This document shows positions 9,211-42,221 of a stretch of DNA of 64,000 nt, piece by piece (within the stretch, counting starts at the first letter, position 1; every line of letters starts with the position of its first letter). Origin of the DNA: Aurantiochytrium sp. KH105 (taxonomy: Eukaryota > Sar > Bigyra > Thraustochytrida > Thraustochytriidae); assembly GCA_003116975.1 (NCBI GenBank), contig BGKB01000001.1, forward strand, positions 558,001-622,000, written 5' to 3'. Made by a program: the position numbers and the translations under genes. A model generated the notes under the pieces. That model had not been told where the DNA came from and searched no databases. It saw only the letters and a list, made by a program, of their open reading frames with translations.

Positions 9211-12200
9211 ATGCGTAGGCAAGATGTCTGCGCAGCAGTCCTTGTGGCGCTGATTGCCCTCTTCTATGTTGTAGCTGCAGAGGATGGCCATGCAGGTGCT
9301 CTGCATAGTCTTGATAACAGCGACGCTCACACGGACATTGTGAATATCAATCAGGATGACGCGGGCAACACCATCGACACGAGAAGGCTTTTGCATGGCA
9401 CAAGTAGATCATCGGGTTCATCTAGCTCATGCAAATGCTCTTCTGGAACTCTCTATGTGGCGTGTAAGAATTCAGCCAACAATAACTTGGAGTACACGAT
9501 GGACGTAAACGGCAAGACGACCAAGAACAAGGGCTTGAAGAAAAAATATCTCAATAACTTCGGCCACTACTACACTGCTACTATTGACCTTGATTCCGAA
9601 GACGCGAAGATGACCTTTACGTGTGAGTCGAAAGCAGATGAGTACGCTGGCTTTTTCGGCAAATTTGTCGGCTGCGAGGATAAGAAGTATCTTATCTCCG
9701 ATCCAATTGAGGTCACCTCGAGCCCTGGCTTTGGCTCATGGTATATCGACCCCAGTTCATCTGACGCGACGACCGACCTGAAGTATACGGGCCTGACATG
9801 GAGCGATTCATCATTTGTTTGGAACAAAGACACGTCGAAGACAGAGATGACGTTTGGACTGAATGTCCCCAAGTGCATGGAAGACAGCACGGTGTCGACT
9901 ACCGAGGCTCCCACCGATGCTCCCACTGGTGCCCCCACTGGTTCGCCAACGTGGAGTCCCACGGAGGACCGCGGCTGTGACCTCTGCACGACGGCTAAGG
10001 TCATGGTACGCTGCGACAATAAGCTCAAGTTCCGACAGTATCAACTTCAAAGCGGTGAAGATCTCGTCGAGCTGCCTTCTTCACGTGACGGTGACTATGA
10101 CCTGAAAGACTGGAGAGAAACATTTATGACTGAGATTGACATCACACCAGAGACGCGACTCGAGTTCGAGTGCACTGACGTTGGCGTTGTCGGTGGCTTT
10201 GTCGGTGAGATCGAATTCTGCGGGCACACGATCAAGACGTCGCATGATCTGGTCGCAAACGAGACGCCGGCACCGTTCACATGGTTTGTGAACCCTGATA
10301 AGTCTGGAACTCTGGGAACGCTCGTATACACCGATATGGGCGGGGGGAAATGGGGCCTGACGGAAGGACAATACACGGACGAAGATGCGGTATGGGTATG
10401 GGACGACCAGACATACAACACAATGACGTTTGGTTTTGACCTCGGGTGCACGACACCGGCAAATAGTGAGGAAGTGGTTTCCACAAACTCGCCTACGGAC
10501 TCGCCTACAGGCTCGCCAACGAACTCTCCAACGGACGCACCAACTTTGAGCCCTGTGGAGACGACTTCGTCATGCTACCAAGTTGGCATGCACTTCAAAA
10601 CAAATGACAAGGACGACCTCCTGTCCTTGAAGGGCGATGCGGACATTGACAGCCCTGAGCGCTGTCACGCCAAGTGTCTCGAATACGACTGGTGCAACTT
10701 TTGGGCCTTTCGTGATGCTCAGCCCAAGGAATCTGATTCGGAATCTCTTTGTAATCTGTTGAAGAGTCTCAAGGACAATGGCGGTGGAGCTACGGCCAAC
10801 CTGCGTTGGACTTCGGGAACGAGAATTTGTACGGAGACGCCAACAAACGCTCCAACGGAATCGCCTACGAACTCGCCGACGAACTCGCCAACGGATTCGC
10901 CAACAAACGCTCCAACGGAATCGCCTACGAACTCGCCGACGAACTCGCCAACGGAGTCGCCTACGGACTCGCCGACAGAATCACCAACGGAGTCCCCGAC
11001 GGACTCGCCGACGGACTCGCCGACGGACTCGCCGACGGACTCGCCGACGGACTCCCCGACGGAGTCCCCGACGGACTCGCCGACGGACTCGCCGACGGAC
11101 TCGCCGACGGACTCCCCGACGGAGTCCCCGACGGACTCGCCGACGGACTCGCCGACGGACTCGCCGACAGACTCCCCAACGAACTCGCCGACAGAGTCTC
11201 CTACAATGTTTCCAACACTTTCGCCAATTGACACTTACGAAGACTGTTACACATTCGGGCTCTGGACGGGCACGTCTCTCGAAGAATTCAGCAATGTTGG
11301 AAGTGCAAGTCAGTGTCACTCTCGTTGCGTTGAGAATTCGGGGTGCAATTTTTGGTCTTTTCTGGCGAACCAAGGAAAGTGCGTCCTGTACAGCTCGGTC
11401 GATGGGTCGAATAGCGATGGTAACCTCGACTTGGTGCGTGGGCCTAGGACCTGCACGCAGGCTCCGACCGATTCACCGACGGAAGCACCAACGACCTTGG
11501 CTCCCACATCATCTCCAACAACTGCTCCTACGTTGTCGCCAGTCGATACACACGACAGTTGCTACGAACTTGGACGCTGGTCTGGAAGCGCACTCGACGT
11601 GGACTCTAATGTAGACGATGCTGGGCAGTGCCATGCGATTTGCGTTGAGACCCCAGACTGCAACTACTGGGCTTATCTTGCCAATCAAAAGACATGTGGG
11701 CTCTATCAGACTGTTGATGGTCCAGCGGGCGACGAAGATGACGGTACACAGTTGCGCGGCCCCAAGGTCTGCACGCCAGCTCCGACTGACGCCCCGACCG
11801 ATGCCCCGACTAGCTCGCCAACGTGGAGCCCCACGGAGGACCGCGGCTGCAGCCTTTGTTCAAGGGCCACAGTCACGGTTCGATGCGACAATAAGCTCAA
11901 GTTCCGACAATATCAGCTCCAAGGCGGTGAAGATCTCGTCGAGCTGCCTTCTTCACGTGACGGTGACTATGACCTGGAAGACTGGAGAGAAACATTGACG
12001 ACCGAGATTGACATCACACCCGAGACGCGACTCGAGTTCGAGTGCACTGACATTGGCGTTGTCGGCGGCTTTGTTGGCGAGGTGGAGGCCTGTGGACACA
12101 CGATCAAGACGTCGCATGACCTAGTTGCAGACGAGACGCCGGCACCGTACACATGGTTTGTGAACCCTGATAAGTCTGGAACTCTGGGAACGCTCGTATA

Positions 12201-15200
12201 CACGGATATGGGCGGGGGGAAATGGGGCCTGACGGAAGGACAGTACACGGACGAAGATGCGGTATGGGTATGGGACGGCCAGACATACAACACAATGACA
12301 TTTGGCTTTGACTTTGGGTGCATCCTGACGGACGCACCCACCGAGTCTCCGACGTCTCTTCCCACGGAGGCACCCACGGAGTTCCCCACGGCAGCTCCTA
12401 CGGATTCGCCGACGAGCTATCCTTCGGACGCGCCGACGAGCTATCCTACGGACGCGCCGACGCGTTTCCCGACAGAGTCGCCGACGCGTTTCCCGACCTC
12501 GAGCCCTACAGATACGCCGACCTTGAGCCCGGTGGAGATCACCTCTGTGTGCTACGAAAACGGAATGCGATTCAAATCAACCTCGGCAAACGAGATTGAC
12601 AGCTTCGTCGACATTGCAGGCATCAATACCCCTGAGCGATGCCACTCCAAATGTCTCGAATATGGCGATTGCAATTACTGGACCTTCCGAGAAGCCTTGG
12701 AAGGATCCTCCTCAGACGCTGCAAAGTCTATTTGCATGTTGATGAGCGAACTCAAGAGTAACAATGGCAGGGTTTCGACCAACACGCGCTGGACGTCGGG
12801 ACCCAGAATCTGTACGGAGATGCCGACGACTTCTCCCACGGATTCTCCGACAGCGTATCCGACAGCCGCGCCCACGAGTTTTCCAACAGATGCACCGACG
12901 AGCGCTCCAACGAACGCGCCAACTCTTTCTCCAACAGACGCACCGACGAGCTTTCCCACGGACTCTCCTACACGATTCCCCACAGACTCTCCGACCAGCT
13001 TCCCCACGGACAGTCCAACAGATGCACCTACTTCATCTCCGACGGATTCGCCCACGACGTACCCAACGCTTTCCCCAGTTGATGTGCTTGAAGGTTGCTA
13101 CTCGCTGGGACGCTGGATCGGCTCCCCATGTGGTGAGTTTGGGCCCGTGGAGAGCGCGTCGCAATGCCATGCTCTCTGTGTCTCGGAAAATTCATGCAAC
13201 TACTGGTCATACGATACGGTGAGCGAAGATTGCGACCTTTACGCTTTGATCAACGCCCCAGAGTCCTTTGCGGACGGCAGCGTCGACTTTGTACGCGGTC
13301 CCAAGGTCTGTACCACAGCACCAACGGCATTTCCGACGGAAAGTCCCACGGCATTCCCGACAGACTCGCCGACGGTTGAGTTGGAAATCACTTCGGAATG
13401 CTACGAGGATGGCATGGCATTTAGGGCAACGGACGATGATACGCTTGACTTCTTCTGGGACGACGAGGAGGTGGACACGCCGGATAGATGCCACGCCATG
13501 TGTGTCAAGGACGATGAGTGCAACTACTGGAGATTTCGAGCGGAGAAGAGTGGTAGCGCCAGTTCCGACAAGTCGTTGTGCACCCTGATGAGCGCGCTGC
13601 AGGCAAGCGGTGGTCGCGACTCGAGTGTCGGCTACAGGTACACATCGGGTCCGCGCCTTTGCACCAACATGCCGACGCCGAGCCCGACAAACGCACCGAC
13701 CGAGTACCCGACCATGTCGCCGACCGACTCGCCGACGTTTCATCCTGTGGCGATCACCTCGGCATGCTACGAAAACGGCATGCGATTCAGATCCACTACA
13801 ACGAAAAGACTCGATAGTCTGCTCGGCATGGAGGATGTCAACACCCCGGAGCGCTGCCACTCCAAGTGTCTCGAATATGACGACTGCAACTACTGGGCTT
13901 TTCGTGAGGCTGTAGAAGGAAAGACTGCAGACTGGGCAAAGTCTCTTTGTGACTTGATGAGCGCTCTCAAGGAAGATGGAGGTCGAGTCGAGACAGACAA
14001 CACGCGCTGGACCTCGGGAACCCGGATCTGTACGGAGATGCCGACCACTTCGCCGACGAACTCCCCTACAGCGTACCCAACCGATGCGCCGACGGAGTCT
14101 CCTACTACATTCCCGACGGATGCGCCGACCGATTCTCCTACCGCAAACCCGACTAGTTCTCCCACTGCATTTCCGACGGATGCGCCTACGAACTCTCCTA
14201 CCGCATTTCCGACGGATTCGCCAACTGCGTTCCCGACGAATTCGCCTACCGCGTCCCCGACGGATTCTCCTACTGCATTCCCGACAAATGCGCCGACGAT
14301 CTTCCCGACCGATGCGCCTACAAATTATCCGACGCCTCAACCGACGGCATTTCCCACGAACGCACCGGTCGGCAACGTGGAGGACGAAGAAGAAGAGAAC
14401 TGCTTTGTGGACGGCGATCAGTACAAGGCTGGAAAGACAATCGTTGTCAAGAAGAATGTCGAGAGCATCGAGGATTGTCGGGACTGGTGCCTCAAATACT
14501 CGAGCTGCGCTGGCTACACATATGAGGTCGCCAAGCTCGCATGCACACTCAAGGACCAGAAGAAGCCTTACAAACGTTTGGCGAATGTCGATGGATGCAT
14601 CTCCGGTCCGCGCGAGTGTCCCGAGCCCGAGGCATGTGTGCACCAGTTTCTGGAGTACAAGGGCAAGAACTTGCAAGCAGCAACAACAGAGAGCTCCGCT
14701 CTCGATTGCGCAAGATTGTGTCTGAATACCAACAAGTGCGAAGGGTGGGTCTATCGACTCAAGTCCACAAAGTGCTATATTCGCCACAAGATCACTAGTG
14801 TTCCTGTCGCCCGGAACTCGGACTACTTTTCGGGCTTGATCGACGGCTGCGAGGCCGAGTTGGACACGACTCCGGCGCCAACGACGGAAGCCACGCTCTC
14901 TGTGCTGGCGCACGTTGCGCAGTGTACTCACAAGGTGAACGACGTGCTCTTTGTTGTCGACAGCTCTGGGTCGATCGATGCAACGGAGTGGGAATACGTG
15001 AAAGAATTTGTGCGACAGTTGGGCAGCGCTTTCAGGCTGGGCATGACCTCGGACGACTCGCGGCTGGCCATGGTGGAATACTCTGGCTATGCCACAACCT
15101 TGTGGGACTTCACATCGCCAATTGCAACCGACCAAGATCTCTTCCAAGAGGCGGCGGACGCAGCTGAAGCAACGCATAAGGCTACGGCCACAGGCCATGC

Positions 15201-15552
15201 TTTGATCACGGCCCAAGGCATCTTCGAGGAAACACCAGTTCGCGAAAACCTAGACCGACGCGTGGTCATCCTCATCACGGATGGTAATCCCAACTTCAAC
15301 CGAGGCTGCAAAGAAGCTGGGTATGGTATCAACGGCCTCAAATGTGCAAAGAAGGCCGCGATCGACTTACGCAAGGGCCCCGACGGGGTATCTGGTACAG
15401 ATGACGATATTTACTTGGTGTTTGTCGCCGTCGGTAAAAGCGTGAAAGCAAATGCTTTGAACAAAGTGGAGGACCTTCAGGTCAGCGCATCGCCTGCAGG
15501 CCTCTCAGCAATCGCGGATGAAATCATCATCGACGTTTGCGGCACAGCGTAA
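9211..15552 (+). CDS. Giant secreted PAN/Apple-VWA protein A
   Basis: 2113 residues from an ATG followed at once by a signal peptide (VLVALIALFYVVAA, cleavage near residue 24). Order: module N1 (about 74-223), N2 (256-413), PAN1 (455-541), a long SPTD stalk (541-678), PAN2 (679-748), PAN3 (784-855), N3 (880-1037), PAN4 (1114-1201), PAN5 (1296-1367), PAN6 (1397-1484), PAN7 (1519-1607), PAN8 (1730-1804), PAN9 (1809-1881) and a C-terminal VWA (1905-2110). PAN domains show C-Y at the start, ERCHAKC and CNYWAF-like cores and a final R-I-C. The VWA metal site is intact: DSSGS at 1917 and TDG with D2024. Domains are linked by S/T-P-T repeats that probably carry O-glycans. No membrane anchor follows the VWA. 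Adhesion or matrix function is inferred from domain types. Confidence 0.9.
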   Translation: MRRQDVCAAVLVALIALFYVVAAEDGHAGALHSLDNSDAHTDIVNINQDDAGNTIDTRRLLHGTSRSSGSSSSCKCSSGTLYVACKNSANNNLEYTMDVNGKTTKNKGLKKKYLNNFGHYYTATIDLDSEDAKMTFTCESKADEYAGFFGKFVGCEDKKYLISDPIEVTSSPGFGSWYIDPSSSDATTDLKYTGLTWSDSSFVWNKDTSKTEMTFGLNVPKCMEDSTVSTTEAPTDAPTGAPTGSPTWSPTEDRGCDLCTTAKVMVRCDNKLKFRQYQLQSGEDLVELPSSRDGDYDLKDWRETFMTEIDITPETRLEFECTDVGVVGGFVGEIEFCGHTIKTSHDLVANETPAPFTWFVNPDKSGTLGTLVYTDMGGGKWGLTEGQYTDEDAVWVWDDQTYNTMTFGFDLGCTTPANSEEVVSTNSPTDSPTGSPTNSPTDAPTLSPVETTSSCYQVGMHFKTNDKDDLLSLKGDADIDSPERCHAKCLEYDWCNFWAFRDAQPKESDSESLCNLLKSLKDNGGGATANLRWTSGTRICTETPTNAPTESPTNSPTNSPTDSPTNAPTESPTNSPTNSPTESPTDSPTESPTESPTDSPTDSPTDSPTDSPTDSPTESPTDSPTDSPTDSPTDSPTESPTDSPTDSPTDSPTDSPTNSPTESPTMFPTLSPIDTYEDCYTFGLWTGTSLEEFSNVGSASQCHSRCVENSGCNFWSFLANQGKCVLYSSVDGSNSDGNLDLVRGPRTCTQAPTDSPTEAPTTLAPTSSPTTAPTLSPVDTHDSCYELGRWSGSALDVDSNVDDAGQCHAICVETPDCNYWAYLANQKTCGLYQTVDGPAGDEDDGTQLRGPKVCTPAPTDAPTDAPTSSPTWSPTEDRGCSLCSRATVTVRCDNKLKFRQYQLQGGEDLVELPSSRDGDYDLEDWRETLTTEIDITPETRLEFECTDIGVVGGFVGEVEACGHTIKTSHDLVADETPAPYTWFVNPDKSGTLGTLVYTDMGGGKWGLTEGQYTDEDAVWVWDGQTYNTMTFGFDFGCILTDAPTESPTSLPTEAPTEFPTAAPTDSPTSYPSDAPTSYPTDAPTRFPTESPTRFPTSSPTDTPTLSPVEITSVCYENGMRFKSTSANEIDSFVDIAGINTPERCHSKCLEYGDCNYWTFREALEGSSSDAAKSICMLMSELKSNNGRVSTNTRWTSGPRICTEMPTTSPTDSPTAYPTAAPTSFPTDAPTSAPTNAPTLSPTDAPTSFPTDSPTRFPTDSPTSFPTDSPTDAPTSSPTDSPTTYPTLSPVDVLEGCYSLGRWIGSPCGEFGPVESASQCHALCVSENSCNYWSYDTVSEDCDLYALINAPESFADGSVDFVRGPKVCTTAPTAFPTESPTAFPTDSPTVELEITSECYEDGMAFRATDDDTLDFFWDDEEVDTPDRCHAMCVKDDECNYWRFRAEKSGSASSDKSLCTLMSALQASGGRDSSVGYRYTSGPRLCTNMPTPSPTNAPTEYPTMSPTDSPTFHPVAITSACYENGMRFRSTTTKRLDSLLGMEDVNTPERCHSKCLEYDDCNYWAFREAVEGKTADWAKSLCDLMSALKEDGGRVETDNTRWTSGTRICTEMPTTSPTNSPTAYPTDAPTESPTTFPTDAPTDSPTANPTSSPTAFPTDAPTNSPTAFPTDSPTAFPTNSPTASPTDSPTAFPTNAPTIFPTDAPTNYPTPQPTAFPTNAPVGNVEDEEEENCFVDGDQYKAGKTIVVKKNVESIEDCRDWCLKYSSCAGYTYEVAKLACTLKDQKKPYKRLANVDGCISGPRECPEPEACVHQFLEYKGKNLQAATTESSALDCARLCLNTNKCEGWVYRLKSTKCYIRHKITSVPVARNSDYFSGLIDGCEAELDTTPAPTTEATLSVLAHVAQCTHKVNDVLFVVDSSGSIDATEWEYVKEFVRQLGSAFRLGMTSDDSRLAMVEYSGYATTLWDFTSPIATDQDLFQEAADAAEATHKATATGHALITAQGIFEETPVRENLDRRVVILITDGNPNFNRGCKEAGYGINGLKCAKKAAIDLRKGPDGVSGTDDDIYLVFVAVGKSVKANALNKVEDLQVSASPAGLSAIADEIIIDVCGTA
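10840..11220 (+). repeat. 12-bp coding tandem repeat (SPTD/SPTE stalk)
   Basis: A 12-base unit encoding S-P-T-D/E/N is repeated about 30 times between PAN1 and PAN2 of protein A. A higher-order unit of about 60 bases (one E-type variant followed by four D-type variants) is repeated in tandem near 11050-11180. The antisense strand is also open because the unit is a multiple of three without antisense stops. Confidence 0.92.
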
Positions 15553-16847: not shown

Positions 16848-19800
16848 ATGCGCACGCGAGATGTTTGCGCGGCAATCGCCGTGGCATTCATTGCGCTTTT
16901 CTATGCTGTGACTGCAACCGAAGATGTGTACGCAAGCATTTCGATGGGCCTGGCCGAGGAGGCTAGCCTTGAAGAGAGCGAATCGAGTGTGGGTGCATTG
17001 AACATCAACGAAAGCGACGTGGACAATACCATCGACACGAGAAGGCTTTTGCATGGCACAAGTGGTTCGTCGAGTTCATCTAGCTCATGCAAATGCTCTT
17101 CTGGAACAGTCTTTGTTGCGTGCCGACGAGATAGCTGGGATAAGCTGGAGGGATATACTATGGATGTCAATGGCAAGACAAGTGAAGGTGAAGGCCTGAC
17201 GTGGACATGGTCCAATACGTTTGGCAAATACTACTATGGCACAGTCGACGTTAGTTCCGAAGCCGCGAAGATGACCTTTACGTGTGAGTCGGATGCGGGT
17301 AATAAAGGCTTCTACGGTGCATTTGTCGGCTGCGACAACAAAGTTGCGTATAGCATTTCCGATCCGCTTGAAGTCACTTCGAGCCCCGGCTTTGGCTCAT
17401 GGTATCTTGACTCCAACTCGGAAGGCGCAACGCACGATTTGAAGTATTCGTATGTGTCTTCATTCCCCTTTGTTTGGAACAAAGACACGTCGAAGACGAA
17501 GATGACGTTCGGACTGAACGTCCCCAAGTGCATGGAAGACAGCACGGCGTCACCTACCGAGGCTCCCACCGTTGCTTTGACCGAGGCTCCCACTGGTTTG
17601 CCAACGTGGAGCCCCACGGAGGACCGCGGCTGTGACCTCTGCACGACGGCCAAGATCACGGTACGCTGCGACAACAAGCTCAAGTTCCGACAGTATCAAC
17701 TTCAAGGCGGTGAAGATCTCGTCGAGCTGCCTTCTTCACGTGACGGTGACTATGACCTGGAAGACTGGAGAGAAACATTTACGACTGAGATTGACATCAC
17801 ACCAGAGACGCGACTCGAGTTCGAGTGCACTGACGTTGGCAGTGTCGGTGGCTTTGTTGGTGAGATCAAATTCTGCGGGCAGACGATCAAGACGTCGCAT
17901 GATCTGGCCGCAGACGAGACGCCGGCACCGTTCACATGGTTTGTGAACCCTGATAAGTCTGGCAGTCTCGGGACGCTCGTGTACACGGATATGGGCGGGG
18001 GCCAATGGGGCCTGACGGAAGGACAGTACACGGACGAAGATGCGGTATGGGTATGGGACGACCAAACATACAATACGATGACGTTTGGCTTTGACCTCGG
18101 GTGCATGGCACCTACAGATAGCGAGGAAGTAGTCTTAACCAACGCGCCTACAGACTCGCCCACCGACTTTCCTACGGAATATCCGACGGACGCACCAACT
18201 TTAAGCCCTGTGAAGACGACTTCGTCATGCTACCAAGTTGGCATGCACTTCAAAACAAATGACAAGGACGACCTCCTATCCTTGAAGGGCGATGCGGACA
18301 TTGATAGCCCTGAGCGCTGTCACGCCAAGTGTCTCGAATACGACTGGTGCAACTTTTGGGCCTTTCGTGATGCTCAGCCCAAGGAATCTGATTCGGAATC
18401 TCTTTGTAATCTGTTGAAGAGTCTCAAGGACAATGGTGGAGCTACGGCCAACCTTCGTTGGACTTCGGGAACGAGAATCTGTACGGAGACGCCAACAAAC
18501 GCTCCAACGGAATCGCCTACGGAGTATCCTACGGAGTATCCTACGGAATATCCTACAGAATACCCTACGGAGTACCCTACGGAGTACCCTACGGAGTACC
18601 CTACGGAGTATCCTACGGAGTATCCTACAGAATACCCTACGGAGTACCCTACGGAGTACCCTACGGAGTACCCTACGGAGTATCCTACGGAGTACCCTAC
18701 GGAGTACCCGACAGAGTATCCTACGGAGTCTCCTACGACGGATTCTCCCACTGGTTCGCCAACGTGGAGTCCCACGGAGGACCGCAGCTGCAATCTCTGC
18801 ACGACGGCCAAGATCACTGTGCGCTGCGACAACAAGCTCAAGTTCCGACAGTATCAGCTCCAAGGCGGTGAAGATCTCGTCGAGCTGCCTTCTTCACGTG
18901 ACGGCGACTACGACCTGGAAGACTGGACACAAACCTTCACAACCGAGATTGACATCACACCAGAGACGCGACTCGAGTTCGAGTGCACTGACATTGGCAT
19001 TGTCGGTGGCTTTGTTGGCGAGATCAAATTCTGCGGACAGACGATCAAGACGTCGCATGACCTGGTCGCAGACGAGACGCCGGCACCGTTCACATGGTTT
19101 GTGAACCCTGATAAGTCTGGCAGTCTCGGGACGCTCGTGTACACGGATATGGGCGGGGGCCAATGGGGCCTGACGGAAGGACAGTACACGGACGAAGATG
19201 CGGTTTGGGTCTGGGACGATCAGACATACAACACGATGACGTTCGGCTTTGACTTCGGGTGCGTACTGACAACTTCTCCGACCGAGTCTCCGACCAACTC
19301 TCCTACGGATTCTCCGACCGGCTTTCCCACGGACAGCCCAACAGATGCACCTACTTCTTTTCCGACGGATTCGCCTACGTTGTACCCAACACTCTCGCCC
19401 ATTAGCGTGCTTGAAGATTGCTACTCGCAGGGACGCTGGATCGGTGCAACGTGCAGTGACTTCAGTGGCGTCGAGAGCGTGCCCAAGTGCCATGCTCTTT
19501 GCGCAACAAATCTTGCATGCAACTACTGGTCATACGATACGGTGAGCAAAGATTGCAACCTGTACGCCTTGATCGATGCCCCATTGTCCTTCACAGATCA
19601 CAGTGTCAACTATGTGCGCGGTCCCAAGGTCTGTACCTCAGCTCCTACGGCTTATCCGTCAGACAGCCCTACGCCTCACCCGACAGACTCGCCGACGAAC
19701 TTCCCAACAGATCACCCTACACCATCGCCGACGTTGAGTCCTGTAGTAGAAACTCCGAGCTGTTACGAGGCCGGCACATGGTTCCGCGCATCGAGCAGTG

Positions 19801-22800
19801 ATGTTCTCGACTCATTCTTGGGTGACGAAAACGTTAATACAGCGGATAGATGCCATGCCAAGTGTGTTGAGAGCGTCGCATGCAACTACTGGAGCTTTCG
19901 GCAGGAAGGCACCGGTTCAACTGCGAACGCCAAGTCGCTATGCAAGCTACTGAGCACTTCAACAATGACCGACGACGACCGTGCCTCCGGCTCGAGGTGG
20001 ACATCGGGGCCCCAAACATGCACAAATATGCCAACATCAAGCCCAACAGACGCGCCAACAGATTACCCTTCCACAAGCCCAACGGACTCGCCAACTAGTT
20101 ACCCTACAGCCAGCCCGACCGGATTTCCGACCTTTCAACCTGTGGCAGTCACCGATGTGTGTTACGAAGGTAGTATGCGCTTTGTATCGACCTCGTCAGA
20201 GATGATCGATCGTTTCCTCGATGTTGCGGACATCAACACGCCCGAGCGCTGCCACTCCAAGTGTCTCGAATATGACGACTGCAACTACTGGGCTTTTCGC
20301 GAGGCTCATGCAGGAAGCACTGCGGACTGGGCAAAGTCTCTCTGCGAGCTAATGAGCGCTCTCAAGGAAGATGGAGGCAGAAGCTCAACCAATGCACGTT
20401 GGACATCCGGTACCCGACTTTGTACGGAATCCCCAACGCACGCCCCCACGGACTCTCCGACAAGTTTCCCGACCTCTTTTCCAACGCACGCGCCGGTCAG
20501 CTTTACTTCGTATTGCTATGAGTCGAGCACAAACTACCTGGCACTATGGCGAGATACGCTGGAAGTCTATGAGGATGATGAGAGCATTGCTACAATGGAG
20601 GAATGCCACGCCATGTGTCTTGTGACCGAAGATTGCAATTATTGGAGTTTTCGAGCAGCAAAGGAGGGCTCCTCTGCGGATTGGGCAACGTCCAAGTGTG
20701 TTCTCATGAGTGCTGTAAGCGCGCGCGAAGAAAATGTTAGCGATCGTTGGACTTCGGGTCCCAAGATCTGCACACATATGCCTACCAGCTTTCCGTCTTC
20801 CGCCCCCACCGACGCACCTACAGGCTTTCCCACAGACTTTCCGACCGAATATCCCACCTCAAGTCCAACCGAGTTCCCATCTTTTCATCCCGTAGCAGTC
20901 ACCGATGTGTGTTACGAAGGTAGTATGCGCTTCGTAACGACCTCGTCAGAGATGATCGATCGTTTCCTCGATGTTGCGGACATCAACACACCCGAGCGCT
21001 GCCACTCCAAGTGTCTCGAATATGACGACTGCAACTACTGGGCTTTTCGCGAGGCTCATGCAGGAAGCACTGCGGATTGGGCAAAGTCTTTCTGCGAGCT
21101 AATGAGCGCTCTCAAGGAAGTTGGAGGCAGAAGCTCAACCAATGCACGCTGGACCTCGGGAACCAGGGTTTGTACGGAGATGCCAACGACTGCGCCAACG
21201 GACTCTCCTACGAACTACCCGACAGATGCACCGACAGACGCGCCGACGGGCTTTCCCACGGATTTTCCAACCGAGTTCCCCACAAACGAGCCCACGGACT
21301 CTCCCACGAGGTTTCCCACGGACAGCCCGACTGATGCGCCTACTTCTTACCCTACGGACAGCCCGACGCTTTCGCCCATAAATGTACTCGAAGACTGCTA
21401 CTCGCTGGGACGCTGGGTTGGCTCGGCTTGCAATGACTTTTCCGGCGTCGAGAGTGCGTCCAGGTGCCATGCTCTTTGCGCAACGGAGGCGGCGTGCAAC
21501 TACTGGTCATACGATACGGTGAGCGAAGACTGCAATCTGTACACCTTAATCAACGCCCCGGAGTCCTTCGCGGACGGCAGCGTCAACCATGTACGCGGTC
21601 CCAAGGTTTGTACCACAGCACCGACGGCATTTCCGACGGAAAGTCCCACGGCATTTCCGACAGACTCGCCAACGGTCGAGTTGGAGATTACTCCGGAGTG
21701 CTACGAGGATGGCATGGAGTTCAAAGCTACGGATGATGATACGCTTGAATTCTTCTGGGACGACGAGGAGGTGGACACACCGGATAGATGCCACGCCATG
21801 TGTCTTGAATACGATGAGTGCAATTACTGGAGCTTTCGAGCGGAGAAAAGTGGTCGCACCAGTTCCGACAAGTCGTTGTGCACTCTGATGAGCGCGCTGA
21901 AGTCAAGCGGTGGTCGCGACTCGAGCGTGGGCTATAGGTACACATCGGGCCCCCGCCTTTGCACCAACATGCCGACGCCGAGCCCGACAAACGCACCGAC
22001 CGAGTACCCGACCATGTCGCCGACCGACTCGCCGACGTTTCATCCTGTGGCAATCACCTCGGTTTGCTATGAACACGGCATGCAATTTAGGTCTACCTTT
22101 GCAAACAGACTCGACCGCTTCCTCGACGAGGAAGACATCGATACCCCGGAGCGCTGCCACTCCAAGTGTCTCGAATACGACGAATGCAACTACTGGGCTT
22201 TTCGTGAGGCTGTAGAAGGAAAGACTGCAGACTGGGCAAAGTCTCTTTGTGACTTGATGAGCGCTCTCAGATCTACTGGAGGTCGATACTCGACCGTTAC
22301 TCGTTGGACCTCGGGCACCCGCATCTGTACGGAGATGCCGACCAGCTCGCCGACGGAGACTCCTACAGCGTACCCAACAGATGCGCCAACGGATTCTCCT
22401 ACCGCGCACCCGACGGATGCGCCTACGGAATCTCCCACCACATACCCGACGGATTCTCCAACCATGTACCCGACGGATGCGCCAACCGATTCTCCTACCG
22501 AATTTCCGACAGGCGCGCCCACGGATGCTCCTACCAACGCGCCAACCGACGGCGATGTCACTTCCGAGGAAGATGAGAACTGCTTCGTGGACGGGGATCA
22601 GTACTGGGGTGGAAAGAAGATCGTCAAGAAGAGAAATGTCAAGAGCATCGAGGACTGCCGGGACTGGTGTCTCAAGTATTCGGCTTGTGTCGGGTACACT
22701 CTGGAGACTGCAAAGAAGGAGTGCACGCTCAGAAGCTCGAAGCCTTTTACACGTAGGGAGAACATTGACGGCTGTATTTCCGGCCCGCGCGAGTGCCCCG

Positions 22801-28226: not shown

Positions 28227-28229
28227 NNN
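28227..28229. other. Assembly gap (NNN) inside a GGGA repeat
   Basis: Three Ns directly follow six GGGA/GGAG units at 28205-28226. The true length of this repeat is unknown. Confidence 0.99.
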
Positions 28230-28957: not shown

Positions 28958-29989
28958 ATGAGAGCGTACGCTGCCTTCACATTGGCTTCGGCCGCTCTTC
29001 TCGGCGTCGTCGCCGCCGAGACCGCTGAGGAAGAAGAAGTCATCCTTGACATCTCCAGCCCGGAGTGTGTCGAGGACGCTGTCGTGTACGATGGCTCCAT
29101 CGTCGAGGCTTTCGAACTCGACGATTTGGCCACTGTAGACGAGTGCTACTCACTGTGCATCGCCGTCGAAAACTGCACCGCGTGGTCCTTCTTCGACGCA
29201 TCCAGCGCTAACAAGACCTGCGAGCTCTTTGACTCAGTGGATGACATGTACGCCGACGCCGACTACGTCTCTGGCCCGCGCGAGTGCTCGAATATGACAT
29301 ACACGGACGCACCGACCGCGGCACCGACGAGCTCCCCAACGCTCTCGCCGGCAATGGTCTGTGGCGGCTCCCCTAGCGACGTCGTTTTCCTGGTCGATAC
29401 GAGTACGATGATGTCCGTCGCGAACATCAACGAGGTCAAGGACTTCATTGCAGAAATGGCTGCTGCTTTCTACATTGGCACCGGCGAGGACCAGTCTCGA
29501 ATCGCCGTTGTCACCTACGCCGCGGACGCCGAGGTGCTCTGGGATTTCACCGCGCCTGAGGCTAGCAACGTCACTCTCCTCCTTGAGGCGCTCGAAAGCG
29601 ACCTGTACCGCTCCTCGCAACGCTCGCGCGGACTCGGAGGTGGTGTTGCCCTTGTCAACGAGCTCCTTTCGAACACTCCTGTTCGTGAAGGCGCTTCGCG
29701 AACCGTTGTTGCATTGGCGTCCACCAATCCGAACACTGGGAACAGCTGCTCGAGCTATGGCTACTCGCGAAGCCCGAGGGTATGTGTGCGCAACGCCGCC
29801 GACGACCTTGTGCGAGGCCCTGACGACGAGCTCGGTACGGATGACGATGTTTTTCTTGTGGACATCAGGTTCAGGTCCAGTGTCTACAACAACCTTTACA
29901 ACAACAACGAAAACTACCAGATGACCGTCAGTGCTTCGCGCTTGACGTCCAGGACGGATGACGTTCTTGCCGAGGTATGCAGCCTGTAG
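28958..29989 (+). CDS. Secreted PAN-VWA protein with degenerate metal site
   Basis: 343 residues. The frame is open further upstream, but the ATG at 28958 starts a clear signal peptide (AAFTLASAALLGVVAAE) and follows a T-poor repeat leader. One PAN-like domain (about residues 35-108) ends VSGPREC, then a short APT linker, then a VWA from about residue 140. The VWA keeps the fold markers: DVVFLVDTS, the W-D-F-T segment, RTVVAL and the GTDDDVFLV strand. Its MIDAS is broken: DxSxS reads DTSTM at 147, the central threonine region reads LGGGV, and the TDG aspartate is serine (about S255). Metal-dependent ligand binding is therefore unlikely. The two cysteines of the family-specific insert are kept. 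Confidence 0.88.
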   Translation: MRAYAAFTLASAALLGVVAAETAEEEEVILDISSPECVEDAVVYDGSIVEAFELDDLATVDECYSLCIAVENCTAWSFFDASSANKTCELFDSVDDMYADADYVSGPRECSNMTYTDAPTAAPTSSPTLSPAMVCGGSPSDVVFLVDTSTMMSVANINEVKDFIAEMAAAFYIGTGEDQSRIAVVTYAADAEVLWDFTAPEASNVTLLLEALESDLYRSSQRSRGLGGGVALVNELLSNTPVREGASRTVVALASTNPNTGNSCSSYGYSRSPRVCVRNAADDLVRGPDDELGTDDDVFLVDIRFRSSVYNNLYNNNENYQMTVSASRLTSRTDDVLAEVCSL

Positions 29990-31942: not shown

Positions 31943-31962
31943 CCAGCCATGTCCATGGCTGG
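31943..31962. repeat. Short perfect inverted repeat
   Basis: CCAGCCATG and its complement CATGGCTGG are separated by two bases. It could fold as a hairpin, but a single short palindrome in 2.7 kb may be chance. Confidence 0.6.
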
Positions 31963-32600: not shown

Positions 32601-32675
32601 GGCAAGGCAAGGCAAGGCAAGGCAAGGCAAGGCAAGGCAAGGCAAGGCAAGGCAAGGCAAGGCAAGGCAAGGCAA
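32601..32675 (+). repeat. (GGCAA)15 repeat directly upstream of a start codon
   Basis: Fifteen exact pentamers end 13 bases before the ATG at 32689, so the repeat is almost certainly in the 5' leader of the mRNA. Shorter GGCAA runs occur in the leader of the gene at 28958. Confidence 0.95.
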
Positions 32676-32688
32676 GCCAGGCTGAGCC

Positions 32689-34638
32689 ATGTGGCCATCA
32701 TCCAAGGGCTTGACGATCTGCGTTATAGCAAGCTCTGCTCTTTTCCTGTCTGCCCAAGGCAAAGAGCTTCGTCATCGCGATCTCATCGTTGGTGACATCA
32801 TTGATGACATCGTTGATCCAATCGTCGACATCATCGACGGCGTGAGCTGCTTTGTGGTTGGCTTGCTCAGCTCCGATGACGCCCTCGTAGCTCTGATCGA
32901 AGCCGACGCCGAGGTGTCAACGGCCGCTCTCTGTCTTGAAGCGTGCTCCAAGGAGACAGACTGCAATTTTTGGAGCTTTTACGAGAACCCTGCGGATGAG
33001 GATGACTATTGCTGCAAGCTCTTCAGCACGGTCGTCTCGCTGGACGTAAGCGTCACGTTGAGTCTTTCTGGCTCCAAATCATGTGCAGCAACCCCAGAAC
33101 CGACGATGAGCCCCGTGGTTGTCAAAGAAGACTGCTATATGACGAGTTACAAGGTCGATGCGGATGCGACCCTTGAAGTTTACTCTGATGACTCAAGCGC
33201 TTGCACAGTCGAGCAGTGCCATGCCAAGTGCGTAGCACACGCATCGTGCAGATACTGGACCTTTCACGATGACAGTCCGAGCACTCTCTGCAAGCTTTAC
33301 GATGTCATCAACGGATTCAAAGAGAAAGGCATTGCATTTACTACAGGTCCCAAGGTTTGTACGGATGCCCCTACGCCCAGTCCCACGAACGCACCCACAC
33401 GTGTGCCCACGAACGCTCCGGTCGAAGACACTCCAGTTCCCACTCGCTCGCCCACAAGCGAAGAGGAGGAGGAAGAAGATGACGATGATGAGCCGGTGAA
33501 TGCCTGCCAGGCAGCTCGTGTAGAGTACAAGGGTGGCAAAACCATCAAGTCGCTTTCGGGCATTCCAAGCTCGCTTGACTGCGCAGAGGCTTGCCTTGAG
33601 TACGAAGAGTGCACGGGCTGGACATGGAAGAGCGACGGAAAGTGTTGGCTGCTAAAAAAGAACTTCAAGGCGAAAAATGGTCGGACGGGTTACTTTTCCG
33701 GGCCTCGCGAATGCCCCAAGGACGTTGCTTGCGAGGTGCAATTTGCAGAGTACACGGGCGGAAAGGACATTGCCCGAATCAACGATGTCAAAAGTGCAGC
33801 AGAGTGTGCAGCCAAATGCATCATCAACGGCGATTGCGAAACATGGACCTGGCGAAGCGACAAAGAATTGTGCACGCTTCGCAAAGAGACCAAGTCAAGT
33901 AGCAAGACGCGTCACGCATACTTTTTCACAGGTACAAAAGAAGACTGCGCCGAGTACGAACTGCCCTCCACTGGGCCCACGCCCGCGCCCACGCTTTCGC
34001 CCTTGACGGATGGCGACGACTGCGACTATCCAATCAACGACGTTCTTTTCATTTTGGACGGCTCTGGATCTACGGACAGCAAGGAGTGGCGTGACATAAG
34101 GCGTTTCGTGCGTCAGCTCAGTACTTCTTTCGACGTGTCGAGCTCCACGACGCGTCTTGGTGCCGTGCGCTTTTCGACGGAAATCGACATCGATTGGACG
34201 TTTGATGATGATCGAGCCCTCGATTGGGACCTTTTCCAGAGCTCTGTAGGCGCACTGACAGCAGATGGAGCGGGATCCGCGACGGGCGGCGGCTTGATTG
34301 CTGCCCAAGACGTTTTTGACGATTCCTCAATCAGAGAGGGCACTCACAAGCGAGTTGCAATTCTTATTTCGAGTGGGAAGCCGAACAAGATCACGGATTG
34401 CAAGGACGCCGGCTATTCGAAGAACGGGAAGAAGTGCGCCAAGGAAGCGGGCCTCGATTTGCGCAAGGGCGCTGATGGTATCGAAGGTACCGAAGACGAT
34501 GTTTTTCTCATTCATGTTCGCGTTGGTAAGGTTGTTCCTAGGTCGCTCTTTGGTCGCAAGGAGGATCTTTTTGTGCAACTTAACGAAGATGACGTTGCTG
34601 CAAGTGCTAGTCTCGTGATTGGCGAGATTTGCACATGA
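32689..34638 (+). CDS. Secreted PAN(x4)-VWA protein, partly degenerate metal site
   Basis: 649 residues from the first ATG after the GGCAA repeat, with a signal peptide (LTICVIASSALFLSAQG). PAN1 and PAN2 occupy about residues 53-230, followed by a short T-P linker and an acidic E/D run (about 262-277). PAN3 (CQAARVEYKGGK type) and PAN4 (CEVQFAEYTGGKD type) follow, then a TP linker and a C-terminal VWA from about residue 445. DGSGS (D457) and the threonine of SATGGG are intact, but the TDG aspartate is serine (SSG, about S562), so the metal site is incomplete. The insert keeps its cysteines and the acidic GTEDD loop before the strand VFLIHVRVG. Closest in layout to the next gene (36120-38231), probably a tandem duplicate. 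Confidence 0.9.
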   Translation: MWPSSKGLTICVIASSALFLSAQGKELRHRDLIVGDIIDDIVDPIVDIIDGVSCFVVGLLSSDDALVALIEADAEVSTAALCLEACSKETDCNFWSFYENPADEDDYCCKLFSTVVSLDVSVTLSLSGSKSCAATPEPTMSPVVVKEDCYMTSYKVDADATLEVYSDDSSACTVEQCHAKCVAHASCRYWTFHDDSPSTLCKLYDVINGFKEKGIAFTTGPKVCTDAPTPSPTNAPTRVPTNAPVEDTPVPTRSPTSEEEEEEDDDDEPVNACQAARVEYKGGKTIKSLSGIPSSLDCAEACLEYEECTGWTWKSDGKCWLLKKNFKAKNGRTGYFSGPRECPKDVACEVQFAEYTGGKDIARINDVKSAAECAAKCIINGDCETWTWRSDKELCTLRKETKSSSKTRHAYFFTGTKEDCAEYELPSTGPTPAPTLSPLTDGDDCDYPINDVLFILDGSGSTDSKEWRDIRRFVRQLSTSFDVSSSTTRLGAVRFSTEIDIDWTFDDDRALDWDLFQSSVGALTADGAGSATGGGLIAAQDVFDDSSIREGTHKRVAILISSGKPNKITDCKDAGYSKNGKKCAKEAGLDLRKGADGIEGTEDDVFLIHVRVGKVVPRSLFGRKEDLFVQLNEDDVAASASLVIGEICT

Positions 34639-36119: not shown

Positions 36120-38231
36120 ATGCCGAGCATGTCTCGTCTTGCCGTGTGCTTCCTTTTCTTAGGAGCATCCGGCGTCTCCCACGTCATGGGAAAGGACTCC
36201 CTGAGACGTTCGCTTGATGAACTTGAGCATTGCCATGTGGTTGGCCATTACGTTGGAAGAACAATTGTCACAGAAAACGCTAAGGATGGGAGTCTGGACA
36301 CTCCTGAACAGTGCCACCAGTTGTGCAAGACACGCGACGAATGCAGCTTCTGGACATGGTACAATCCTAACCATGAAAATGGAAACTACCATTGCAAGCT
36401 GTTAAGTAGCGAACGGGATCTCCAAACACACGGTCAGTTTCGGCACTACGTGTCCGGTCCCAAGTACTGCACAAACGCACCGACGCCAAGCCCGACACCC
36501 GCACCGACGCCAAGCCCGACACCCGCACCGACGCCAAGCCCGACACCCGCACCGACGCCAAGCCCGACTCTCGCACCGACGCTCAGTCCCGTGACGGTGA
36601 AACCCGATTGCTACACTTCCCGGCTCGAGTACACGGGTGAGCAGACGGTGGACTACTTTCCGAATGACGAAGGCATTCAGAGCCCGGAGCAGTGCCACGC
36701 CAAGTGCGTCGAGATCGAGAAGTGCAACTACTGGACCTTTTTTGACGGCTCGAGCAACCAGCACTGCAAGCTCTGGGGGGAGGTGACGGGGACGAAAAAC
36801 AAGGGTAACGCGTACACCATTGGTCCCAAGATCTGCACGGACGCGCCCACGCCTTCCCCGACGCCCGCGCCCACGCCTGCGCCCACGCCCGCGCCCACGC
36901 CTGCGCCCACGCCTGCGCCCACGCCTGCGCCCACACCGGCCCCCACGCCTGCGCCCACGCCTGCCCCCACACCCGCACCCACACCAGCCCCCACGCCGGC
37001 GCCCACGCCGAGTCCCACGCCGAGTCCCACGCCGGGCCCGACACCGGCGCCCGTGGAGGAGGTGGTGGTGGCCAGCGCGACGGAGTGCATGACCGCGGAC
37101 GTGCGGTACGTCAAGGGCAAGACGATCAAGAAGCACGAGGGCGTGGAAAGCGCCGAGGTCTGCGCGGAGACCTGCCTTGAGTACGACGACTGCACCGGGT
37201 GGACATGGCGCGAAGACGGCCGATGCTGGATCATGGGCAAGAACTTTAAGCCCAAGAGCGGGCAGGAGGGCTACTTCTCCGGGCCGCGCGTGTGCCCGAG
37301 CGACCCGGAGTGCGAGCTGCAATTCCAAGAGTTCCACGGCGGCGACGACGTAGACACTATCAAGAAGATCGACTCTGCGGCGGAGTGCGCGACCCTGTGC
37401 AACGAGAACGACGAGTGCGAGACGTGGACGTGGCGGAGCAATAAGGCGCTGTGCAAGCTGCGCAAGAACACGGACGCGGAGACCACGGATCGCGACGCGT
37501 ACTACTTTACCGGAGAGAAAGCCAACTGCGGCGCGTACTCTTTGGCCTCGCTCGTCCCGACCACAGCGCCGACGCTGTCGCCGCTCGCGAGCGGCTCCCC
37601 GTGCGAAGACCCCATCAACGATGTCTTGTTCATCATGGACGGCTCCGGGTCCACCGACAGCAAGGAATGGCGCGACATGAAGCACTTCGTGCGCCAGCTC
37701 AGCACTGCGTTTCAGGTCTCCAGCTCGGCGACCCGCCTTGCCCTCTTGCGCTTCTCTACGGAAACCACGGTGGAGTGGACCTTCTCCGAAGAAGAGGCTC
37801 AGGACTTGGACCTCTTTCAGGAGGCGGTCGATGCTCTCGAAGCCGAAGGTACCGGATCCGCGATTGGATCAGGAGTGATTGCCGGGCAGAACATGTTCGA
37901 AGCGTTTCCCATCCGTGAGGGCACCCACAAGCGCGTTGCGATCGTCATTACCAGCGGCAAGCCCAACAAGGGTACGGATTGCAAGGCTGCCGGGTACTCG
38001 AAGAAGGGCAAGAAGTGCGCCACCCAGGCAGGCCTCGACCTGCTCAAGGGCGCCGATGGCATCGAGGGCACGGAAGATGACATTTACCTGGTGCACGTTC
38101 GAGTCGGATACGAGGTTCCGCGCAAGCTCTTTGATGGCAAGGAGGACCTTTTCATCCAGCTTGATGATGACGACGTGGTTGGGGACGCGGACTATGTCGT
38201 CGCCAATATGTGCACGATTTCCCAGTCCTAA
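36120..38231 (+). CDS. Secreted PAN(x4)-VWA protein with PAPT stalk and degenerate metal site
   Basis: 703 residues with a signal peptide ([19 protein letters not shown]). PAN1 (about 38-119) is followed by a short PAPTPSPT linker, PAN2 (about 161-238), a longer PAPT stalk, then PAN3 and PAN4 (about 323-474) and a VWA from about residue 495. The first metal motif is intact (DGSGS, D507), but the central threonine is isoleucine (SAIGSG) and the TDG aspartate is serine (TSG, about S612). The insert loop GTEDDIYLV is kept. It resembles the preceding gene in domain order and in the sequence of PAN3, PAN4 and VWA. Its base composition is clearly GC-richer than its neighbour's in the second half, which may reflect conversion or different codon choice. 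Confidence 0.9.
36838..37045 (+). repeat. Coding tandem repeat (PTPA stalk)
   Basis: About 14 units of 12 bases (CCCACGCCTGCG and variants) encode P-T-P-A, changing to P-T-P-S and P-T-P-G at the 3' end, between PAN2 and PAN3. Confidence 0.92.
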
Positions 38232-39440: not shown

Positions 39441-42221
39441 ATGCCTCGTCTTCTTGTCATTTCAACCCTATTTTCGACTGTCCTTGTTGCTCAAGCTTTG
39501 CCATCATTTGAGGAGCTCGGATCCGACTGTTGGACCGCATCCAAATATGATGGGACTCCGCTCGAAGGTGTTGCCCAAACCGATCCAGTGACGTCTGCTT
39601 GGGGGTGTGCTCTTCTCTGCCAAACCCATGTGGATTGCGAGGTGTGGTCATTCTTTGACAATGGAAACAACAAGAACTGCTTTCTGTATGCCAGCTACCG
39701 CAACTCTCAGGAAATGCCACAGAAGTGGACTTCTGGGCCTAAATTTTGCGAAAGCGAGGAAACAGATGCGCCTACAACCTTCGAGACAGATGCACCTACG
39801 ACGTTTGAGGAGACAGATGCACCTACTGCGTTCGATGAGACGGACTCGCCCACCACGTTTGAAGAAACGGACTCGCCGACAACGTTTGATGAGACAGATG
39901 CGCCTTCGGCGTCTGTTGAGACGGACGCGCCTACAACATTTGAGGAGACAGATGCACCTACTGCGTTCGATGAGACGGACTCGCCCACCACGTTTGAAGA
40001 AACGGACTCGCCGACAACGTTTGATGAGACAGATGCGCCTTCGGCGTCTGTTGAGACGGACGCGCCTACAACATTTGAGGAGACAGATGCACCTACTGCG
40101 TTCGATGAGACGGACTCGCCCACCACGTTTGAAGAAACGGACTCGCCGACAACGTTTGATGAGACAGATGCGCCTTCGGCGTCTGTTGAGACGGACGCGC
40201 CTACAACATTTGAGGAGACAGATGCACCTACTGCGTTCGATGAGACGGACTCGCCCACCACGTTTGAAGAAACGGACTCGCCGACAACGTTTGATGAGAC
40301 AGATGCGCCTACAACCTTTGAGACAGATGCACCTACGACGTTTGAGGAGACAGATGCGCCCACTGCGTTCGATGAGACGGACTCGCCCACCACGTTTGAA
40401 GAAACGGACTCGCCGACAACGTTTGATGAGACAGATGCGCCTACAACCTTTGAGACAGATGCACCTACGACGTTTGAGGAGACAGATGCGCCCACTGCGT
40501 TCGATGAGACGGACTCGCCCACCACGTTTGAAGAAACGGACTCGCCGACAACGTTTGATGAGACAGATGCGCCTTCGGCGTCTGTTGAGACGGACTCGCC
40601 TACAACATTTGAGGAGACAGATGCGCCCACTGCGTTCGATGAGACGGACTCGCCCACGACATTTGAAGAAACGGACTCGCCTACGACGTTCGATGAGACA
40701 GATGCGCCTTCGGCGTCTGATGAGACTGATTCGCCTACCCCTTCAGAAGACACCGACGCGCCGACAGGATTTGATGAGACTGATTCGCCAACCCCTTTTG
40801 ATGATACCGAATCACCAACCCCTTTTGAGGACACCGACGCGCCGACAGGATTCGATGATACCGAGTCACCAACCCCTTTTGAGGACACCGAGTCGCCTAC
40901 ACCTTTTGACGATACCGAGTCACCCACGGCCTTTGAGACTGACGCACCGACGGGTTTTGATGAGACAGACTCGCCCACGGCCTATGAGACCGACGCGCCG
41001 ACAGGATTTGATGAGACTGACTCCCCCACACCTTTGGATTCACTCATGCCAACAACAACGCCCACCATGGCGCCAACGTTGCCCTGCTATACCGAGGGGC
41101 ATCGATACAAGGGTGGCACAACCTTGGCCAAACTCAAGGGCGTCAAGACTCCGGAAGTTTGCCACGAAGAATGCCTTGCCGACGAACTCTGTGAAGGATT
41201 CTCGTGGAAGGCGAGCAAGAAGAGCTGTGAGCTGAAGGCCGGTGCCTACAAGCTCAAGTCAGGGCAAAATGGATATGCCGCAGGCTCTCGCGATTGCATC
41301 CACAACACGGCGTGCCTTGCTCAATTTGTCCAATACAAGTCCAAAGCAATGGCCAAGGTCAAAAATGTGGAGGACGCCTTCTCGTGCGCAGATGAATGCC
41401 GCGAACGGAGCAAGTGTATGTCTTGGACGTATCGCAGCTCGAAGAAGTTTTGCGCTCTGTTCAGTGAAGTGGACGAGTCGAAGAAGAAGGAGGGCCAAAA
41501 GGCCGAATACTTTTCGGGTATTCGCGAAGGTTGCGATAGCATCCCGACGCCCCAGCCAACACTCGCAACGCCCGCCCCCGTGATTTCGTGCGTACCCAAG
41601 GTCAACGACGTGCTCTTCGTGGTTGACAGCTCGGGGTCGATTGACGACAGCGAGTGGGCCCATTTGAAGAACTTTGTTCGCCAACTCGGCAGCGCGTTTG
41701 ATGTGGGCAATAGCGACGAGCAAACGCGTCTGGGCTTTGTCGAGTACTCGACCGATGTCACAAGGCTCTGGGACTTTACGTCTCCATACGCCGTTGACGC
41801 TACGGCCTTTCAGGTTCACGTCGACTCTGCCGAGGCAACAGGCAAAGGCACGGGGACTGGCCCCGCGCTGATCGAGGCCCAGAATGTATTTTGGGAGACG
41901 CCCACGCGTCTCAATCTGGATCGACGCGTGGTCATCATCCTAACAGACGGAAATCCCAACAAAAACGAGAATTGCAAGCAAGCTGGCTATTCGCCAAACG
42001 CCAAAGCTTGCGCAGCCGAGGCCGCCGAAGAACTTCGCAAGGGGCCGGACGGTCAGCTTGGTACCGATGATGACGTCTATCTCGTCTACGTTCGTATTGG
42101 CGACAAGATCCGTACTGATGTGTTCGGCGACGTGGAGGACTTGCAGGTCAATGCTTCGCCAGAGGGCCTCTCGCTGATCGCCGACGAGATCGTGCGCGAC
42201 GTTTGTGATATTGTCGCGTAA
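39441..42221 (+). CDS. Secreted PAN(x3)-VWA protein with ETDxPT higher-order repeat
   Basis: 926 residues with a signal peptide (LLVISTLFSTVLVAQA). PAN1 covers about residues 30-103. Then comes a stalk of about 430 residues built of 9-residue units (ETDAPTTFE, ETDSPTTFD, ETDAPSASV and variants), strongly acidic and threonine-rich. Two PANs follow (CYTEGHRYKGG and CLAQFVQYKSK types), then a VWA with intact metal site: DSSGS (D729), T in GTGTG, and TDG (D836). The last PANs and VWA resemble the ends of the giant proteins A and B more than those of the two nearer genes. The GTDDDVYLVYVRIG loop is kept. An AATAAA lies 16 bases after the stop. Confidence 0.9.
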   Translation: MPRLLVISTLFSTVLVAQALPSFEELGSDCWTASKYDGTPLEGVAQTDPVTSAWGCALLCQTHVDCEVWSFFDNGNNKNCFLYASYRNSQEMPQKWTSGPKFCESEETDAPTTFETDAPTTFEETDAPTAFDETDSPTTFEETDSPTTFDETDAPSASVETDAPTTFEETDAPTAFDETDSPTTFEETDSPTTFDETDAPSASVETDAPTTFEETDAPTAFDETDSPTTFEETDSPTTFDETDAPSASVETDAPTTFEETDAPTAFDETDSPTTFEETDSPTTFDETDAPTTFETDAPTTFEETDAPTAFDETDSPTTFEETDSPTTFDETDAPTTFETDAPTTFEETDAPTAFDETDSPTTFEETDSPTTFDETDAPSASVETDSPTTFEETDAPTAFDETDSPTTFEETDSPTTFDETDAPSASDETDSPTPSEDTDAPTGFDETDSPTPFDDTESPTPFEDTDAPTGFDDTESPTPFEDTESPTPFDDTESPTAFETDAPTGFDETDSPTAYETDAPTGFDETDSPTPLDSLMPTTTPTMAPTLPCYTEGHRYKGGTTLAKLKGVKTPEVCHEECLADELCEGFSWKASKKSCELKAGAYKLKSGQNGYAAGSRDCIHNTACLAQFVQYKSKAMAKVKNVEDAFSCADECRERSKCMSWTYRSSKKFCALFSEVDESKKKEGQKAEYFSGIREGCDSIPTPQPTLATPAPVISCVPKVNDVLFVVDSSGSIDDSEWAHLKNFVRQLGSAFDVGNSDEQTRLGFVEYSTDVTRLWDFTSPYAVDATAFQVHVDSAEATGKGTGTGPALIEAQNVFWETPTRLNLDRRVVIILTDGNPNKNENCKQAGYSPNAKACAAEAAEELRKGPDGQLGTDDDVYLVYVRIGDKIRTDVFGDVEDLQVNASPEGLSLIADEIVRDVCDIVA
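39783..40740 (+). repeat. 135-bp higher-order coding repeat
   Basis: Five 27-base subunits form a 135-base unit that recurs at 39783, 39918, 40053 and 40188 almost without change. After that come shortened variants in which the fifth subunit is replaced by an 8-residue one. The near-identity of copies points to recent expansion. Minus-strand and +1 frames are also open across it. Confidence 0.95.

Follow-up and report, generated by a model that had tools for sequence, protein, structure and literature searches.

A seven-gene array of PAN and VWA domain proteins sharing a PAN-PAN-VWA tail in Aurantiochytrium sp. KH105, candidates for secreted adhesive or matrix glycoproteins

PAN domains, like VWA domains, are prevalent in apicomplexan microneme proteins, and the twelve-genome apicomplexan table of the same source lists no PAN+VWA pattern (PMC2575384). 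The oomycete protein CBEL is described as a leader, two PAN domains, a Pro/Thr-rich hinge and a CBM1 with no catalytic domain, and galactose/GalNAc lectin activity is reported for it there (PMC3532174). In Sclerotinia another PAN protein, Ss-Sl2, builds up on the walls and is required for cellular integrity (PMC3338822), and a passage of a diatom secretome study names von Willebrand factor type D, not type A (PMC9054022). For Aurantiochytrium limacinum, a report names 18 bothrosome or ectoplasmic-net candidates, none tested, and describes A0A6S8AHQ2 as a secreted ectoplasmic-net candidate that is MIC4-like by remote homology and up on settlement (PMC12221091). The array described here is a compact candidate set for the proteins by which thraustochytrid cells or nets grip surfaces. 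Judged by titles or the starts of abstracts, with subscription papers mostly outside the scope and the body of PMC5772912 (the one paper with both 'labyrinthul' and 'von Willebrand') left out, no thraustochytrid or labyrinthulomycete PAN or VWA protein is described. The main text of PMC13345962 contains none of VWA, Willebrand, apple, adhesi- or 'PAN domain', that of PMC6050695 none of VWA, Willebrand, apple, adhesi- or 'PAN', and PMC10101102 neither VWA nor Willebrand.

We analysed a window of 64,000 nucleotides (C1 558001-622000) from the Aurantiochytrium sp. KH105 assembly, which comprises 76 Mb in 367 contigs. A first-pass annotation, made from the letters of this window, had proposed seven same-strand genes at 9211-42221. 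All seven + strand frames were located, each uninterrupted in the window and intact in a second copy of the array. Beyond that annotation, our analysis adds this second copy, a domain here called X, a shared PAN-PAN-VWA tail, losses in the MIDAS metal site and a putative gene conversion between the first two genes. The MIDAS motif consists of DxSxS, T and D metal-site residues. PMC9019593 describes MIDAS as five non-contiguous residues. The seven genes are as follows:

9211..15552, + strand: g1, 2113 aa; leader, X0, X1, PAN, PT stalk, PANs, X2, PANs (nine PANs in all); PAN-PAN-VWA at the end, MIDAS complete; copy on contig C26 open, dN/dS 0.22
16848..23735, + strand: g2, 2295 aa; leader, X0, X1, PAN, EYPT stalk, X2, PANs (eleven in all); PAN-PAN-VWA at the end, MIDAS complete; dN/dS 0.18
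25812..26471, + strand: g3, 219 aa; leader, one PAN, sequon-rich tail, without VWA; dN/dS 0.065
28958..29989, + strand: g4, 343 aa; leader, one PAN, short PT stalk, VWA; MIDAS degenerate, last S, T and D positions altered; dN/dS 0.17
32689..34638, + strand: g5, 649 aa; four PANs, PT and acidic stalk, PAN-PAN-VWA end; MIDAS D position altered; dN/dS 0.17
36120..38231, + strand: g6, 703 aa; four PANs, APTP stalks, PAN-PAN-VWA end; MIDAS T and D positions altered; dN/dS 0.25
39441..42221, + strand: g7, 926 aa; three PANs, long ETDAPTTFE-type stalk, PAN-PAN-VWA end; MIDAS complete; dN/dS 0.09

Translation of g3 and g4 most likely begins at 25812 and 28958, where the predicted leader starts in each case. 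The g3 product carries nine N-glycosylation sequons, eight of them, counted by eye, in its tail. Three N at 28227-28229 mark a short gap directly upstream of g4, and towards the end of the window, at 60184-62707 on the - strand, lie two adjoining frames of MtN3/SWEET-type sugar transporters.

A Pfam domain search, which the first-pass annotation had proposed as a check, found PAN_1 or PAN_4 matches in all seven products, six of them above a PAN gathering score; the PAN of g3 stays under both (PAN_4 25.2 versus 27 bits, E 1.7e-5; PAN_1 17.2 versus 21.4). VWA (PF00092) was over the cut-off in six of the seven (g1, g2, g4, g5, g6 and g7; E 3e-14 to 1e-19), and the scan gave no VWA in g3. The PAN numbers read off by the annotation (9, 11, 1, 1, 4, 4 and 3 for g1 to g7) were reproduced exactly, and identically in the second copy, with a PAN profile that was trained on PAN stretches of this array and is thus not independent; Pfam PAN_4 stretches alone give 9, 9, 1, 1, 4, 4 and 3, that is, nine rather than eleven for g2. 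One PAN-type repeat each in g1 and g2 also matched MANEC over the cut-off, and the PT repeat family matched the stalks of these two genes. Leaders and anchors were judged by a crude hydropathy scan. By this measure all seven products have an N-terminal hydrophobic stretch, a putative signal peptide, which is clear in g1 to g4 and g7, weaker in g6 and weakest in g5; g5 has a further hydrophobic stretch at residues 52-70. A hydrophobic C-terminus or C-terminal transmembrane stretch was absent from all seven by the same scan, as would fit the claim that six products end in VWA without a membrane anchor. The stalks likewise vary by gene, as had been noticed: 12-base repeat units build those of g1, g2 and g6, a 135-base unit in 7.1 copies that of g7, and g3 has its sequon-rich tail instead.

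Contig C26 carries the second copy of the array, at 1020001-1070000, a stretch collinear with 2328-52017 of the window at 91.6-94.6% identity in large blocks. All seven genes recur there in unchanged order and with open frames, with dN/dS values against the window of 0.222, 0.183, 0.065, 0.172, 0.170, 0.245 and 0.094 for g1 to g7, as calculated with an in-house Nei-Gojobori script. The array genes are thus under purifying selection, and since seven open frames recur in the same order with dN/dS of 0.065-0.245, they are real genes and not chance frames. Long open frames also occur on the opposite strand within the array; the + frames are open and constrained in both copies, which rules out chance frames arising from Pro/Thr repeats. 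Across all comparisons made, between alleles and between paralogous modules, dN/dS ranged from 0.02 to 0.36, with none near 1 and the highest values in the g6 domains (0.36) and X0 of g1 (0.35). The first-pass annotation had called the family diversifying; the maximum of 0.36, together with module numbers that are equal between the copies, gives that description no support. The copies do differ in stalk length and, through the putative gene conversion described below, in one X domain of g1. With domain limits set by our own rule, the alignment of the two copies has 156 gap columns, of which 147 fall in the 2161 of 7248 residues that lie outside domains, and the remaining nine come from one- or two-residue indels inside domains; stalk length therefore varies and the folded modules stay.

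Domain X is a cysteine-containing domain of 148-158 residues with no Pfam match over the cut-off, present in three copies each in g1 and g2:

9430..9876, + strand: X0 of g1, divergent type, 65% amino-acid identity to X0 of g1 on C26
9976..10449, + strand: X1 of g1
11848..12321, + strand: X2 of g1
17088..17531, + strand: X0 of g2
17631..18104, + strand: X1 of g2
18789..19262, + strand: X2 of g2

On C26, g1 and g2 are 96.6-100% alike at offsets of about 150 to 1650 bases from the start codon, 1650 being the end of the compared stretch, and their flanks and leaders are just 38-62% alike. In the window, beyond an offset of about 750, the likeness of the two genes is at the allelic level of 94.0-98.7%, apart from a single stretch at 80.7%; upstream of about 750, g1 carries the divergent X0, at 73% nucleotide identity to that of g1 on C26. 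The other five X pairs are 92-97% alike between the copies. Because the N-terminal blocks of g1 and g2 are near-identical between flanks and leaders of such low likeness, the plain reading is that interlocus gene conversion between the two genes has probably affected this block at least once after the copies separated. A search of the whole genome with X1, which leaves out the divergent X0 type so that further X0-like genes may exist, found ten places: the eight X1 and X2 copies of the two arrays and a gene on C25/C71, itself in two copies. The X domain of this gene, 46% identical to the query, stands in an open frame of 4067 residues, where laminin-G-like modules adjoin it; that match is marginal, at 23.1 bits against a cut-off of 22.9 in one cut and below the cut-off in a longer translation. 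The X1 query had no match in viral_contigs. Against solved chains, a six-row profile of domain X matched only CEA (E 0.0056), and an eight-row profile gave VP4/capsid pieces at E 0.03-0.26 (best VP4 E 0.032) with CEA at E 1.3; as the E values are unstable between six and eight rows, a CEA or VP4/capsid fold was set aside as chance. By analogy with the company it keeps, we would guess that domain X binds sugars.

Five members end in the PAN-PAN-VWA tail, located by alignment and genome search:

14401..15549, + strand: tail of g1
22581..23732, + strand: tail of g2
33505..34635, + strand: tail of g5
37086..38228, + strand: tail of g6
41085..42218, + strand: tail of g7

The tails of g1, g2, g5 and g6 are 40-49% identical to that of g7, and g4 has a PAN-VWA version. 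A genome search with the g7 tail returned 31 rows, the best 12 being the six VWA genes of each array copy; among the other 19, scored on the best candidates, none had a PAN pair and a VWA body together. A PAN pair without VWA was seen in two neighbouring genes on C92, and likewise in matches on C101; the two C92 genes (C92:199001-206000) resemble each other at the N-terminus, continue with a PT stalk and close with a PAN pair like that of the array tail. Read from coordinates, PAN and VWA also share frames, with VWA ahead of PAN, on C10/C81, C114/C210, C74/C178, C29/C39 and C22. With a bacterial or viral origin of the tail in mind, scans by patterns built from the VWA alone gave one weak VWA-only match each in genome_contigs and viral_contigs. 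Among the best 60 of 101 matches to solved chains, the VWA side of the tail scored highest with collagen VI and the mussel byssus protein PTMP1 (9han, 9gtu and 4cn8 for the two together) and with Toxoplasma MIC2, followed mostly by integrins, and the PAN side matched MIC4/MIC5.

In a tree of the VWA domains, g1 and g2 join at 82/91, which is not strong, g5 and g6 join at 100/99, and long-branch joins such as that of g4 are doubtful; the paralogues diverged long ago, with a g1-g2 dS of about 1.3. MIDAS is complete in g1, g2 and g7 and degenerate in g4, g5 and g6, a pattern that is the same in both copies, and with three of six VWAs lacking a complete site no single metal-dependent adhesion mechanism would serve for all. 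VWA dN/dS between the copies is 0.06, 0.10 and 0.02 in g1, g2 and g7 versus 0.19, 0.15 and 0.29 in g4, g5 and g6. Amino-acid to silent changes number 6:32 in the MIDAS-complete domains versus 18:29 in the others (Fisher p 0.029, a post hoc comparison on rounded counts), so that stronger constraint on the former is only suggestive. The difference would fit two functional classes of VWA, without amounting to proof.

A second PAN/VWA tandem array with long PT stalks was found at C24:205001-235000 and C112:195001-225000, with three long genes per copy; one C112 gene is broken by N in its stalk, and on C24 a further, broken fragment sits between two of the genes. These too are tandem proteins of PAN, PT stalk and VWA, but they differ from the array in the window by two N-terminal VWAs followed by PANs and then, in four genes out of six, by a VWA of another type. 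The window and C24, compared without C112, have no common block of 200 bases or more except the stalk repeats of g6. Small PAN frames (about 300 and about 253 residues) occur on C180 (several), C128 (two), C134, C53, C1:647316-650313 and C26:1108926, often close together on opposite strands with near-identical scores; judged by scores and positions, they are perhaps a multiplied unit. A PfaA-type PUFA synthase with a long tandem ACP stretch is linked to thraustochytrids. Matches to a PfaA model at 6-1035 (C72 and C155, 930 bits) and 1759-2567 (C290 and C61, 456 bits) lie below the 1010-bit cut-off, as do matches in 11 of 14 control genomes. Those to 1287-1518, taken here for the ACP stretch, lie within about 150 bases of a contig end in all four contigs, as expected of a long repeat breaking the assembly. 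Many VWA, PAN and synthase loci are paired across the genome, which is what an assembly containing both haplotypes, or two subgenomes, would show. If the assembly does hold two copies, each is about 38 Mb, which would fit a thraustochytrid: one strain is put at 38.7 Mb with 57% GC (PMC5854782).

The array is not ordinary housekeeping; it is built of well-known adhesive domains. The relatives of its tail (collagen VI, PTMP1, MIC2 and MIC4/MIC5), CBEL and the MIC4-like protein of A. limacinum are the basis on which we consider it, slightly on the probable side, to encode related adhesive or matrix glycoproteins that are secreted and lack an anchor, a reading by sequence and analogy. The attachment or matrix role put forward by the first-pass annotation fits this domain content, but the diversification attached to it is unsupported by the rates. 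Speaking against the adhesive or matrix reading are g3, with no VWA and a sub-threshold PAN, and the weak leader of g5. Were it correct, the constant PAN-PAN-VWA cassette would dock to or assemble on a common partner, which might be a membrane receptor, the wall or a polysaccharide outside the cell; the stalks would act as O-glycosylated spacers setting reach; and sugars or glycoproteins belonging to the substrate or matrix could be the ligands of the N-terminal PAN and X domains. The three full-MIDAS VWAs may bind in a metal-dependent manner, and the three MIDAS-degenerate ones may bind independently of metal or be structural. Retention at the cell would need an added partner, since no membrane anchor was seen. 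Where the proteins act is a guess: a settling or attaching surface, either the cell wall or the ectoplasmic net.

One may speculate further, in an extension that we ourselves think improbable, that PAN-PAN-VWA serves as a module for adhesive docking, one that labyrinthulomycetes alone may have, and that the array supplies the settling cell or net with its glue kit. The tail, in metal-gated and metal-free versions, would then hold the protein to cell or net, PT stalks of adjustable length would set reach, exchangeable X/PAN heads would bind substrate, and X would be a new carbohydrate-binding family.

The main rival is that the products are structural cell-wall or scale proteins, which hold the thallus wall together and have no part in outside contact. 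It overlaps the matrix part of the adhesive or matrix reading, and we judge it a serious but clearly less than probable account. PAN proteins can be wall proteins, as PMC3338822 indicates for Ss-Sl2, and the acidic and PT stalks and the missing anchor (by hydropathy) would suit such a role, but the three complete MIDAS sites suggest ligand binding in g1, g2 and g7 at least. Unlikely, in our estimate, is that the genes have no common function and are tandem secreted modular genes with separate roles, kept by ordinary duplication. MIDAS status, PAN number and stalk type do vary among members whose VWAs diverged as long ago as the g1-g2 dS indicates; yet the tail has been kept in five members over that divergence, and with its VWA it was not found at other loci among the best candidates of the g7-tail search. 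Recognition of prey, bacteria or detritus particles, with variable heads and food brought to the net, has still less to recommend it. Heads and stalks differ by gene, X domains and multiple PANs are present, and gene conversion may shift heads between g1 and g2, but the comparisons made, with the low dN/dS range given above, show no diversifying selection, and PAN number is equal in both copies. It is very improbable that the genes serve recognition between gametes or between cells, the stalk lengths and X0 forms marking allelic types: stalk lengths vary and X0 of g1 is only 65% identical in amino acids between the copies, but conversion from g2 would account for that X0 difference, and the five other X pairs stay closely alike.

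Taking the adhesive or matrix reading back to the described systems, the array resembles CBEL of Phytophthora, also a stramenopile, in leader, PAN and Pro/Thr-rich hinge; it differs in having VWA and X rather than CBM1, in its longer proteins and in its tandem arrangement. Pfam scans found no CBM1 in the products, and with this defining domain missing, CBEL-type membership was rejected. Collagen VI and mussel byssus PTMP1 are the top-scoring solved VWA relatives of the tail, but the array has one VWA behind a PAN pair, and Pfam scans gave no collagen domain. A. limacinum A0A6S8AHQ2 is alike by its description, as a secreted, MIC4-like protein that goes up on settlement, and may or may not be a relative. 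Membership of the TRAP/MIC2 family was rejected, with no TSP_1 in any product by Pfam scans and no C-terminal transmembrane stretch by crude hydropathy. Like MIC4/MIC5 (PAN) and MIC2/TRAP (VWA), which are secreted adhesive proteins built of one domain or the other, the array draws on PAN and VWA, but it joins the two on one chain and offers with them a domain without a Pfam match over the cut-off and, within one family, a built-in comparison between VWAs whose metal site is complete and VWAs whose metal site is degenerate.
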